In this document: in pieces, positions 32,453-41,191 of the stretch
How positions within the stretch are numbered: the stretch's first letter is position 1
Layout: every line of letters begins with the position of its first letter
Assembly: GCF_016917355.1 (NCBI RefSeq)
Contig: NZ_CP070304.1
Location: forward strand, 4,650,001 to 4,714,000
DNA from: Glaciimonas sp. PAMC28666
GTDB lineage: Bacteria > Pseudomonadota > Gammaproteobacteria > Burkholderiales > Burkholderiaceae_D
DNA length: 64,000 nt
Direction: 5' to 3'
Notes under the pieces: generated by a model
The model's input: the letters and a program-made list of their open reading frames with translations, nothing else
Databases searched by the model: none
Told to the model about the DNA's origin: nothing
Position numbers and translations under genes: made by a program

Positions 32453-33823
32453 TTAATGCAAGAGCTGCCAAAGTATCAATGTGCCAGCCAGTCCGACCAC
32501 CGAGACAATGGTCTGCAATACCGACCAGACCCACAGAGTTTGTTTCAGCTGCAATCCGAAGAATTCTTTCACCATCCAGAACCCAGCATCATTCACGTGA
32601 CAGAAAAACACTGAACCGGCACCGATTGACAGCGCGATCAACGAACCTTCCGTCGCCGTCATACCCATCGCCAGCGGTGCCAGAATACCTGCCGTGGTGG
32701 TAGTCGCCACGGTGGCGGAGCCAGTCGCCTGACGCAGCGCCACAGCGATTAACCATGCCAGCAAAATATATGGCAGATGGGCCATCTCCGCCGCCTTACT
32801 GATTGTCGTGCTCATGCCCGCATCCAGTAACGTCTGTTTCAGACCGCCACCGGCGCCGATGGTCAATAGCAGCACGGCAATCGGGGCCAGGCTTTTGCGC
32901 AATAAATCACCGACGCGCTCACGTGGCAAGCCGCTGCCCCAGCCCAAAAAGATCACCGCCGCCAATACCGCAAGTCCCAGCGCCACTAATGGTTCACCAA
33001 GGAATTTCAACATCAAAGCCAGCTGACTTTCTTTTGGCATCGCTACTTTCGCCAATGTGCTGCCTAACATCAGAATCACCGGCAATAAAATAATGAGTAA
33101 CGACAGCGCGAAACTCGGCTGCTGGTTCTTAGTTTCTTTAGCGCTATAAACGGCACCCATCGTGGCAGGCAGTTCAATCGGCATGCGACGCGACAACCAG
33201 ATTCCGTATACAGGACCCGCCAGAATGACGGCGGGCACGGCAATGATAAAACCCAGCAACATCGTTAGCCCGAGATCAGCATGCAAAGCGCTGACAGCGA
33301 TCAGCGGCCCCGGATGCGGTGGCATCAACGCATGCAGCGTCGTCATCCCAGCCAGTGCGGGAATCGCAATCTTCAACAACGGTTGACCAGAGCGGCGCGC
33401 AATCACGAAAATGATCGGCACCATCATTACCAGACCGACTTCGAAGAACAGCGGCAGACCAATGACCATCGCCACCAACGCCATTACCCATGGAAGAGAG
33501 CGCCCGTTGGCCTTGCTCAGCAGTGTGGTTGCGATTCTGTCAGCCGCACCGGACACGGCCATGAGCGCACCCAGCATAGCGCCGAGCGCAATGATAATGC
33601 CGGCTTCGCCCAAAATGCCACCGGCACCTTTACTAAAAGCTTTAGCAACTAATTCAGGAGGTAATCCCGCCCCAATGCCCGCGATAAAAGTACCGACAAG
33701 AATCGACAGAAAAGGCGGCAACTTGGTCGCGCTGATAAGGAAAATAATGGCCCCAATCGCCACCGCACAACAAACAATAAGACGGGTATCGTGGGCGATC
33801 CACAAGGCGTTTGACAGATCCAA
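32453..33823 (-). CDS. Gluconate:H+ symporter (GntP family)
   Basis: A 456-residue membrane protein with about 12-14 predicted helices and the GntP-family sequences GLPLFFEVGLVMMVPIIF, MPPHPGPLIAV and TGSATVATTTTAGI, which form the substrate path. It imports gluconate or a related sugar acid with protons. No gluconate kinase or regulator is adjacent; the neighbouring IclR gene belongs to a different pathway. Length is normal for the family. Confidence 0.9.
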   Translation of the reverse strand: MDLSNALWIAHDTRLIVCCAVAIGAIIFLISATKLPPFLSILVGTFIAGIGAGLPPELVAKAFSKGAGGILGEAGIIIALGAMLGALMAVSGAADRIATTLLSKANGRSLPWVMALVAMVIGLPLFFEVGLVMMVPIIFVIARRSGQPLLKIAIPALAGMTTLHALMPPHPGPLIAVSALHADLGLTMLLGFIIAVPAVILAGPVYGIWLSRRMPIELPATMGAVYSAKETKNQQPSFALSLLIILLPVILMLGSTLAKVAMPKESQLALMLKFLGEPLVALGLAVLAAVIFLGWGSGLPRERVGDLLRKSLAPIAVLLLTIGAGGGLKQTLLDAGMSTTISKAAEMAHLPYILLAWLIAVALRQATGSATVATTTTAGILAPLAMGMTATEGSLIALSIGAGSVFFCHVNDAGFWMVKEFFGLQLKQTLWVWSVLQTIVSVVGLAGTLILWQLLH

Positions 33824-34071
33824 CGGTATCTCCTTCGGGTGATATTTTTAAAATTAGGCGCTACGATATACTATTTTCCCTTGGCTGACCGACGTCCTTG
33901 ATCACAAATGGGTTATCCAGCGCGATTGGCCTATGGTTTGTACCTTTTCGGATAAGAAGTTTTAGGAGTAATGCCCTAAAAGTGGCCCTCAATGCTTCGC
34001 ACCATGGCGACCAGGCGCGGATAATCGTTAAACGCTTTCCAGAAGTTGCCGCAATGATCTATACTTCTTTC
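33824..34071. other. Intergenic region gntP / leader RNA
   Basis: The end of the gntP upstream region plus a candidate promoter for the leader RNA: TTTCCA (34036-34041), 18 bases, TATACT (34060-34065). No ORF is seen. Confidence 0.35.
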
Positions 34072-34303
34072 GTCCCTGAAAAGGGAACGGGTTTAGCAGC
34101 CTGACCGCAATCGAGCGCACAAACGGCTTCACGCCGTATCTTTACGTGTGTCTGCCTTCGTTCGCCCTCAAAGGGCGGCGGTGGTGGGGAAGCCTTCGGG
34201 CTTGCTGGGTTTTCTTCTTTTGCTCCAGTCTGCTAACCCCGCTATTTGCCGCCCACCCTACTTAGCAGCGGGGCGCGGTATCACCGCAAAAAAGGAATTA
34301 ATA
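34072..34303 (+). ncRNA. Highly structured leader RNA with alternative pairing, C4-like layout
   Basis: Between a candidate promoter and the ATG at 34304 lie at least five local hairpins: GTCCC/GGGAAC (34072-34088), ACGGC/GCCGT (34123-34137), GCCCT/AGGGC (34164-34176), AAGCC-TTCG-GGCTT (34190-34203, a UUCG tetraloop) and GCGGT/ACCGC (34275-34287). A central CTGCTAACCCCGCT (34230-34243) can pair upstream with GGGTTTAGCAG (34089-34099) or downstream with TTAGCAG (34262-34268) or AGCGGGG (34267-34273), and GGGCGGC (34173-34179) with GCCGCCC (34248-34254). Two copies of TTAGCAG compete for one partner. The layout, structured RNA before a small ORF coupled to a second ORF, is like phage c4-icd-ant, but no sequence homology is claimed. 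Confidence 0.55.
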
Positions 34304-34390
34304 ATGTTCAGCACCATCTTATCTATCTCACGTCGTTTTACTATCGTTAAGTCCTGCACCGCTCTCACCGGCCGGGGAGCACAATCATGA
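34304..34390 (+). CDS. 28-residue peptide in the leader of the next ORF
   Basis: ATG 34304, preceded by AAAAAAGGAA, opens MFSTILSISRRFTIVKSCTA... and ends with TGA at 34388-34390, which overlaps the ATG (34387) of the next gene as ATGA. The frame is open upstream to 34148 across the structured RNA, so an 80-residue form cannot be excluded. The product is basic and amphipathic. Its main role could be to let ribosomes reach the following gene. Confidence 0.5.
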   Translation: MFSTILSISRRFTIVKSCTALTGRGAQS

Positions 34391-34716
34391 GTAACCCACG
34401 CATGACGCCAACCGAATCTTCAACCGCACCGGACTCACTCCATCAAGCATTTTCCTGGGTCCCTTCCACGCATAAAAACGAAGAGGTTGCGGAATTTTAT
34501 GCTCTCACCAAGGATATCTGCCGTGGTCTGCAGACCTGCGTTGAGATCGCGCATTTCAGCACCATGGACAGAGATAGCGAGACCACGCCCATGCTCAATG
34601 TTGAAGACACAGATCGCTTGCTGCGATTAGTGGCAACGTCATCGAAGATGCTGGCAGAAGCTGCCGAGGCGCGAATTGACAATCTGGCGTGTGGTACTGG
34701 GAAGAGTGCCGAATAA
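34387..34716 (+). CDS. Hypothetical 109-residue protein, coupled to the leader peptide
   Basis: I do not recognise the family. The sequence is acidic and helical, with a Ser/Thr/Pro-rich first 20 residues, the segment HKNEEVAEFYALTKDICRGLQTCVEIAHFS and a C-terminal helix VEDTDRLLRLVATSSKMLAEAAEARIDNLA. No signal peptide or membrane segment is present. GGGGAGC lies before the ATG, and the start overlaps the stop of the 28-residue ORF, which indicates coupled translation. Together with the structured leader it looks like a small regulated unit. It could be a regulator or a phage-derived accessory protein. Confidence 0.6.
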   Translation: MSNPRMTPTESSTAPDSLHQAFSWVPSTHKNEEVAEFYALTKDICRGLQTCVEIAHFSTMDRDSETTPMLNVEDTDRLLRLVATSSKMLAEAAEARIDNLACGTGKSAE

Positions 34717-40522: not shown

Positions 40523-41191
40523 TTACTTCGATGGGTTCTGCGCTTTCTGCGCCTGTAACCGAGTAAGCGACTCCTTGATATCATCTTGTGCCAAGGTTAG
40601 CCAGCGTTCGCAGATGTTCAGCTCCGTGCGATAGGTGTGTGCCAGCGCGGCCCCTAATGTTCCTCGGGCAATGAGGTCGAGCGCTTTGTGAACCGCCAGT
40701 CGGCGGTTAGGCTGACTGACCTCACATTGGTAGGCAACGTGCCGTTGAAGATGCTCGCGAATCAAGTGGTAGGCCTCACCGGCAAGTTGGCGGGCGCGCT
40801 GATCAATCGCACCATCGACCACGGCCGGTCTGGCGATAGCAGGAGTGGCCATTCCTGTAAGCAAAAGTGTATTGACATCAATGGTTTCAGGGCCTTTGCT
40901 ATGATTTTCGTATTGGCCGTTGTTCAGGATGATGGGTAATGCTACGTGCGTTACCCATCGCTTGAATGCCTTGGCCCGATGGTGGCGACTGCGCAAGATT
41001 AAGCTGTACAGGCCTGAAGCGTTGATGAGGTTATTTTTTTGAGGATGACCTGTGGCATCATTGGAAATAACGCTATCCAGTTCGTCTGCATCGAGCCGAA
41101 ACAAGCTCTGCCCCGGATTCGTGATGTGCAATATCCCACTGATGTCGCTCGCGAAGAACCAGAATTGTCCGTTCTTTTTGATCGTGCGCAC
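40523..41191 (-). CDS. BRO-N domain (antirepressor-like) protein, phage-derived, start uncertain
   Basis: 222 residues from GTG 41191. The first 90 residues are a BRO-N domain: VRTIKKNGQFWFFASDISGILHITNPGQSLFRLDADELDSVI, NNLINASGLYSLILRSRHHRAKAFKRWVTHVALP. The rest is helical and resembles the DNA-binding or regulatory C-terminal parts of phage antirepressors. The frame is open upstream to a stop at about 41318, encoding ENAASTIYQSSNLPVILTYGTSS, which fits the usual BRO N-terminus (a strand before the first motif), but there is no ATG, GTG or TTG there; an ATT codon stands where a start could be. The gene is therefore N-terminally damaged, or initiates unusually. No other phage genes are near, so it is an isolated phage relic or a recruited regulator. 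Confidence 0.7.
   Translation of the reverse strand: MRTIKKNGQFWFFASDISGILHITNPGQSLFRLDADELDSVISNDATGHPQKNNLINASGLYSLILRSRHHRAKAFKRWVTHVALPIILNNGQYENHSKGPETIDVNTLLLTGMATPAIARPAVVDGAIDQRARQLAGEAYHLIREHLQRHVAYQCEVSQPNRRLAVHKALDLIARGTLGAALAHTYRTELNICERWLTLAQDDIKESLTRLQAQKAQNPSK

Follow-up and report, generated by a model that had tools for sequence, protein, structure and literature searches.

A C4-type antisense leader before a small uncharacterised gene of Glaciimonas sp. PAMC28666, one of many chromosomal copies with differing pairing codes

This study focused on a leader RNA and two small ORFs in a 64,000-nt stretch of the chromosome of Glaciimonas sp. PAMC28666 (the window), which most probably form a complete operon of the c4 antisense type that controls a cargo gene other than an antirepressor. 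By sequence tests, the leader is a member of the C4 family. A search with Rfam covariance models, proposed in the earlier note on this DNA, placed C4 (RF01695) at 34167–34260 (+) with 64.3 bits against a gathering cut-off of 45 (E 3.6e-10 over the window); it is the sole Rfam match above cut-off in the 64 kb, and the alignment covers the full model, with a UUCG-capped P2, P3 and the closing P1. The earlier note, made from the letters alone, had described a UUCG tetraloop hairpin, which is present (34195–34198, capping an AAGCC/GGCTT stem), and had seen the motif TTAGCAG on both sides of a single CTGCTAA, proposing that this central segment pairs either upstream or downstream. The two flanking copies (34093–34099 and 34262–34268) and the central segment (34230–34236) turn out to be the classical C4 elements a1, a2 and a′, and the a′ of the window has an exact 7-nt complement on each side. 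The second element, b′, makes a 7-bp run with b2 at the ribosome-binding region. The reading as a C4-type antisense leader with mutually exclusive pairings is thus borne out by the Rfam score together with a three-way co-variation across paralogues, presented below. The suggested likeness to phage c4-icd-ant operons holds in part: a C4, a small ORF and an overlapping uncharacterised protein are all there, but, as judged from sequence comparison, two defining features are missing. No Icd-like family is matched by the 28-codon ORF (28 residues give little power) or by a longer ORF in the same frame, and the 109-residue protein has no antirepressor match in Pfam, NCBIfam or PHROGs. By analogy with the phage systems, the C4 of the window probably silences the small gene behind it.

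From its 5′ end, the leader region starts with a candidate sigma-70-like promoter (TTTCCA, 18 nt, TATACT) at 34036–34065 (+), found by a promoter scan; it is called a candidate only, since two such promoters were found in the leader region against 0.9 +/- 1.2 in shuffles. A −10-like hexamer occurs at the equivalent place in 37 of the 43 units of two genomes that have an a1, a count without shuffle control that used a hexamer list picked after the sequences were seen. The predicted short a1-b1 (isrK-like) RNA opens with the 5′ hairpin GTCCCTGAAAAGGGAA(C) at 34072–34087 (+), seen in the fold and as the first stem of two sub-threshold matches: c4-a1b1 (RF03163) at 34059–34107, with 31.0 bits under a cut-off of 46.7 (E 1e-5), and isrK (RF01394) at 34072–34143, with 23.8 bits under a cut-off of 50. 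There follow the a1 hairpin (34088–34103, +), which carries the a′ complement in its loop and is placed by co-variation and by the c4-a1b1 match, and b1 (34107–34115, +), placed by pairing scores as a partial complement of the C4 P3 loop. In the window copy the pairing of b1 with that loop is weak, the longest run being 5 bp. A terminator-like hairpin with a poor T-run (ACGGC-TTCAC-GCCGT, then ATCTTT; 34123–34143, +) is seen in the sequence between a1-b1 and C4; 35 of 43 units pass the terminator rule applied between a1 and C4 (no shuffle control), and the window copy fails it. Within the C4 domain, the C4 consensus structure and own-versus-other scores assign the b′ loop of stem P3 to 34209–34224 (+), upstream of the a′ specificity element on the same strand. 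Like a′, the a2 element (+) is placed by sequence and co-variation; it lies immediately 3′ of C4, and b2 (GCAAAA, within 34286–34296, +), recognised by its 7-bp run with b′, adjoins the Shine–Dalgarno-like AAGGA of the small ORF. This 28-codon leader ORF (34304–34390, +) occupies the position of phage icd or orf45 and shares its frame with a longer GTG ORF from 34148. As had been claimed, it is coupled by an ATGA overlap to a 109-codon ORF (34387–34716, +), which specifies a protein of what is here called family A, predicted to be a two-helix hairpin. The fold energy of the 232-nt leader (34072–34303), −88.5 kcal/mol, is moderately below that of shuffled sequences (z −2.16, with 6 of 200 shuffles equally low) and would by itself be weak evidence.

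C4 is a classical antisense RNA of phages. In P1 and P7, for which it was worked out, it acts in trans, is processed by RNase P, and represses a small ORF and, through coupled translation, the gene that follows. The units described here have in common with it the P1–P3 fold, the a′ and b′ elements, an upstream a1-b1, a downstream a2-b2 at the ribosome site, and a small ORF followed by an overlapping effector, behind a C4 model match that is over cut-off; this likeness is to the Rfam model and to descriptions of P1 and P7. They differ in that the cargo has no antirepressor match and the small ORF no family match, in being chromosomal, in about 25 copies with diversified codes, and in that many have a terminator-like hairpin between a1-b1 and C4. 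The scale of this multiplication, the diversified codes and the cargo are what is new here. Many chromosomal C4-like RNAs with a variable a′ loop are also represented by the Group 1 sRNAs of Acinetobacter baumannii AB5075 (PMC5320573); the targets of the loop are unnamed in the available text of that paper, whereas most units here have two targets of their own and a protein gene. The CI RNA of satellite P4, with seqA and seqC, likewise is an antisense that pairs with upstream and downstream target copies (PMC4825925), although P4 acts by transcription termination and the likeness is by description only.

The window unit is one of many copies. The 5.23 Mb genome to which it belongs (G000) contains 26 C4 matches, 25 of them over cut-off. 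When 60 genomes, including this one, were searched, any match was found in 12, among them four congeners with 9, 1, 23 and 2 matches (23 in G003), and there was none in 14 control genomes. Matches to the family A protein number 25 places in G000 and 22 in G003. These two genomes together have 49 C4 units, of which 38 are followed within 700 nt by a family A ORF or fragment, one of them counted via the ORF of its tandem neighbour, and five by a member of family B (74–78 residues) instead. Behind eight of the nine C4 units of congener G001 there are ORFs of a family C (133–160 residues, by eye), and behind the ninth a fragment of it, and so the cargo differs between congeners. Loci L081–L088 of G001 combine a like leader and varied codes with this family C cargo (by eye).

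The longest alignments between units at different sites begin about 100–150 nt before C4, in the promoter region, and end a little short of the stop codon; across all 780 local unit alignments the median is shorter, and a few pairs extend into shared flanks. Twenty neighbouring ORFs were scanned at 12 of the 22 own loci that hold the 26 C4s, and 16 were host-type, three matchless and one a phage integrase (L019:5905–7248), so a prophage context was rejected. Given the extent of the cross-site homology and the mostly host-type neighbours, leader and gene together behave as one dispersed cassette. The BRO-domain gene 6 kb away, which the earlier note had offered as a link to antirepressor operons, is a real one (40523–41191, −; Bro-N 60.7 bits; PHROG anti-repressor Ant, E 3.4e-27). 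Two genes at least, one GST-like and one for a TonB-dependent receptor, nevertheless intervene, and the window has no second C4, so that its nearness is not evidence and it was dropped as a part of the system. It sits among host-type genes; the six window ORFs scanned besides those of the unit comprised this BRO gene and five members of host-type enzyme, receptor or PEBP families.

Four tandem C4 pairs occur in the own genome (3672481/3672776, 4406861/4407174, 5127994/5128687 and 3794325/3794607), each with two different codes; the first copy is without a gene of its own in three, and truncated in 5127994. An orphan C4 at G000:C1:711879–711968 (L024), which could act in trans only or be a relic, keeps its a2 but lacks an exact a1, and no family gene follows it. 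Among the 26 own units, an exact a1 is lacking in three (711879, 4406861 and 289151), a cargo gene of its own in four (711879, 4406861, 3794607 and 3672481), and the cargo gene is truncated or broken in two (289151 and 5127994).

The pairing codes were compared across the 49 units of G000 and G003 by calling a′ from C4 alone and then seeking its exact 7-nt complement in the flanks. It was found upstream in 43, downstream in 38, on both sides in 34 and on neither in two, while 10,000 random re-pairings of C4s and flanks gave at most 14 (a1) and 12 (a2) matches, and only 17 (a1) and 4 (a2) of 2204 ordered unit pairs with different codes match. Since nine units have an a1 but no exact a2, four an a2 but no exact a1, and two neither, some copies are decayed or differently wired. 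There are 13 distinct codes in each genome, and the window code, TTAGCAG, is found in four own units, the window unit included. The co-variation alignment was made from the 34 units with exact a1 and a2, and its percentage of pairing is thus a product of selection; the unbiased pairing figures are those of the 49 units. Within the alignment, five of the seven positions vary on both sides in each helix. There are 68 double-changed cells per helix and a covariation score of 0.751 against 0.22–0.23 in shuffles, with none of 500 shuffles reaching either value, and slid registers are 10–51% paired. Two other counts are reached by many shuffles: the pairs changed on both sides (5) by 330 and 342 of 500, and the further pair types (12) by 258 and 241 of 500. 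The earlier note had suggested looking for compensatory changes in a1, a′ and a2, and such co-variation is indeed seen across the paralogues of two genomes; for example, G000_1432302 and G000_2233217, with proteins 85% identical and units 83.5% identical over 680 nt, differ by an identical two-base change in a1, a′ and a2.

For b′, the mean scores with the unit's own targets were 18.1 (b1) and 16.3 (b2) against 12.0 for others, the highest permuted mean being 13.8 (n = 43 of 49). Among 17 further units from other genomes, a liberal count gave an a1 in at most 16 and an a2 in at most 14, which are upper bounds because the register was the best of three; the G002 match within this set is spurious. 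In terms of a-site duplex energy, the own target was best or tied in only 12 of the 26 own units, so the codes are not cleanly orthogonal and a strict thermodynamic orthogonality was dropped.

The codes are almost unlinked from descent, because the numbers of changes needed on both trees are close to those of shuffled codes. A protein tree was built from 34 of the 38 family A rows, with a repeat of a tandem-neighbour ORF and three short or broken rows omitted; on it, 13 codes require 23 changes, where the minimum is 12 and the shuffled mean 25.0 (17 of 200 shuffles as low). On a leader tree without the code columns, for which those 34 units (of 49) were used in which both a1 and a2 are exact, 14 codes need 27 changes, with a minimum of 13 and 26.2 when shuffled (172 of 200 as low). 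As far as the sequences go, a1, a′ and a2 mostly stay matched though the codes hardly track the trees. Nine pairs of G000 and G003 units share more than 300 nt of flank, and codes at one site can be kept or changed, because these pairs go both ways: three have the same code (250351/3786324, 4263631/5006086 and 3134078/604318) and six different ones. The simpler rule that a site keeps its code and a duplicate changes it was therefore dropped. Five of the six code-differing pairs have the shared flank at unequal distances or on other sides, and may not be the same insertion. The sixth, G000_2689754 and G003_1041858 (L009 and L070), may represent a code that changed in place, as the two share the right flank at a near-equal distance and are sisters in the leader tree, with codes TTGACAG and TTAGTCG. 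The window unit and G003_4428924 have in common their code and also a neighbouring ORF (window 32453–33823), which is 3.6 kb off in G003. Leaders may also be exchanged by gene conversion.

The upstream half of many units resembles, in sequence, Rfam isrK. Of the 12 C4-bearing genomes, ten also gave isrK matches (E 0.001 or better), but only two of these matches reach the cut-off (one each in G031 and G055); no G000 or G003 match reaches the 50 bits (best 49.8). A hand count puts isrK directly upstream of C4 for 16 of its 17 matches in G000 and 17 of its 20 in G003, and the window unit is not among the G000 matches at E 0.001 or better. In a wider phylum sample, 19 of the best-scoring 20 of 30 C4 loci have an adjacent isrK or c4-a1b1 at E <=0.05 (L122 being the exception), and isrK is over cut-off at 10 of these best-scoring 20. 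In the Salmonella prophage Gifsy-1 (NC_010392, L104), all three models exceed their cut-offs at 34131–34329 (−), with 79.3 bits for isrK, 69.0 for C4 and 48.1 for c4-a1b1, and the order is a1b1/isrK, C4 directly behind it, then an antirepressor-like gene. This suggests that IsrK corresponds to the upstream part of a C4 unit, a1-b1, and that STnc1160 is its C4.

Short IsrK has been reported to activate translation of orf45-anrP in trans, with anrP up 139-fold, and STnc1160 to be a stable RNA of ~80 nt processed from a read-through transcript (PMC4825925). The Gifsy-1 locus and the units described here both have a short terminated RNA, a C4, a small ORF and an effector in this order, but Gifsy-1 is one phage copy driving an antirepressor-like gene, and the isrK matches of G000 and G003 are all below cut-off. 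The available text of the Gifsy-1 paper likens the IsrK locus to SeqA/CI/seqC of P4 and does not mention phage P1, C4 RNA, immI or a c4 antisense (PMC4825925); a 2025 Xylella paper has adjacent C4 and isrK in one table, without comment in its relevant passages (PMC12189769). Going by the available parts of these sources, the link between isrK and C4 is likely unpublished. If isrK is the target half of a C4 unit, this would join two literatures and suggest how IsrK activates its operon, as well as where pairing partners of the many C4-like RNAs of Acinetobacter might be sought.

A mechanism can be proposed by analogy with these systems. One promoter would produce a transcript running through a1-b1, the terminator-like hairpin, C4, a2-b2 over the ribosome-binding site, and the 28- and 109-codon ORFs. 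C4 would be cut out (as by RNase P in P1 and P7), and, through pairing of a′ with a2 and of b′ with b2, would keep the small ORF, and hence the coupled protein, from being translated. When transcription stops before C4, a short isrK-like a1-b1 RNA would be left, a decoy to which C4 binds; within one transcript, a1 and a2 would compete for a′. For units of the window type, processing and repression are carried over from P1 and P7, and relief by a short upstream decoy, which may also occur, from Gifsy-1. Something that misfits a simple decoy is that co-expressed C4-containing orf45 RNA made the IsrK-mediated arrest more pronounced (PMC4825925). Since code changes mostly affect a1, a′ and a2 together, each C4 would be expected to act chiefly on its own unit and on those few others with the same code.

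Alternatively, the leader could be a purely cis-acting attenuator, in which a′ pairs with a1 or a2 within one transcript and so sets a terminator, a closed site or an open site, and in which there would be no free antisense RNA. The consensus fold of the 34 units itself selects a1:a′ in cis, which makes this a serious rival, if a rather unlikely one given that C4 works in trans in P1 and P7. The model published for Gifsy-1 has structures A and B switching in cis and comes with compensatory mutants (PMC4825925), yet other C4 homologues are processed and accumulate, both the Salmonella STnc1160 (PMC4825925) and the Acinetobacter Group 1 RNAs (PMC5320573). It could also be speculated that the units resemble type I toxin–antitoxin systems and are kept by addiction, with C4 as an RNA antitoxin and either the small ORF or the two-helix protein as the toxin. 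The small ORFs and many copies behind an antisense RNA would suit such an arrangement, as would the inhibition of host division by P1 Icd (PMC8198154) and the halt in growth through AntQ when IsrK is over-expressed (PMC4825925). Nevertheless, the 109-residue window protein matches no toxin or defence family, and the toxic gene of Gifsy-1, antQ, is a different gene, upstream (PMC4825925), leaving the analogy improbable.

Functionless remnants of decaying prophage immunity operons are a very unlikely explanation. C4 is derived from phages, the window copy has a weak terminator, and some of the 26 own units lack an exact a1, a cargo gene or an intact one (three, four and two, respectively), all as might be expected of decay, but amino-acid changes in family A are restrained relative to silent changes, the pairings mostly track each code change, and the neighbouring ORFs are mainly host-type, with a single phage integrase. 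The preferred reading remains that of a C4-type operon controlling its cargo gene. A tentative extension of it, possible rather than probable, is that phage C4 operons have been turned into an exchangeable chromosomal cassette, the ~25 copies of which form an RNA silencing network sorted by barcode, where diverse 5-nt codes would let units escape silencing by their siblings, much as in plasmid incompatibility groups and heteroimmune phages. Each unit would then make its mRNA, the C4 silencer and, as a third RNA, the terminated a1-b1 decoy. If so, an element arriving with a code already in use would either be silenced or set its sibling free. With ~25 natural variants on one chromosome, the rules of specificity, cross-talk and code change could be read and tested.

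A common regulatory context would also be gained for small protein families that are uncharacterised, including some members of DUF3077. The 109-residue window protein has no match in Pfam, NCBIfam, PHROG or PADLOC; none of 27 family A members is over cut-off in Pfam, DUF3077 (PF11275) included; and for the members tried of family B (Pfam, NCBIfam and PADLOC) and of family C (Pfam and PADLOC), nothing reached a curated cut-off or rose above the level of chance matches. PADLOC was run on a single representative of A, B, C and DUF3077 each and gave no defence match, and a defence role was set aside. Family A shows dN of 0.09–0.30 (13 pairs) and dS of 0.53–1.83 (11 pairs; saturated at 4.0 in one further pair and undefined in another), and by these estimates is under purifying selection, so that the gene is very probably translated and useful. 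An AlphaFold2 model of the window protein has helices at 33–60 and 72–103 (mean pLDDT 66, pTM 0.44), and Foldseek found nothing in the PDB at E 0.001 or better; with this low confidence and no PDB match, assigning a function by fold was abandoned. A tblastn search of phages and plasmids found no family A, and the remote matches are one in genome_contigs (Massilia rubra) and two in viral contigs. Provisionally, the family appears narrow, and records close to the window's genome may be absent from the searched sets. On one viral contig (L102 2480–2731), a remote relative (33% identity) lies near an int-alpA RNA, with no C4 over cut-off. In the unit G003_1796908 (L071), the family A ORF opens with a long CCCAA-type tandem repeat (TQPNP repeats), possibly a length-variable N-terminus.

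C4 is present in at least 62 of the 398 genomes of the phylum sample, a lower bound, as are its C4 counts, with 10 candidates scored per genome. A deeper search gave 24 matches in G342, 22 in G365, 36 in G188, 13 in G294, 5 in G121, 9 in G381 and 15 in G357. DUF3077 genes have 23 matches in the first four of these and none in the last three, and 11 of the 23 are within ~510 nt downstream of a same-strand C4. Since G342, G365, G188 and G294 together have 95 C4 matches against these 11, most of their C4 units drive something else; among ten C4-adjacent ORFs scanned directly, two matched DUF3077. In G010 (L097), a C4 at 1231–1318 (−) heads an operon in which a gene for a DUF3077 protein (22.5 bits against a cut-off of 21) comes first and one for a family A relative second. 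A similar plan is seen with another RNA family at L100, where tandem copies of sRNA-Xcc1 (RF02221; 1902–1987 and 3747–3834, +) have a C4-like arrangement. Their 7-nt elements, CACTTTG and CTGATTG, have complements upstream and at the downstream ribosome site, and all three places differ between the copies; a BRO-like ORF (by eye) follows the first and a family A relative the second.
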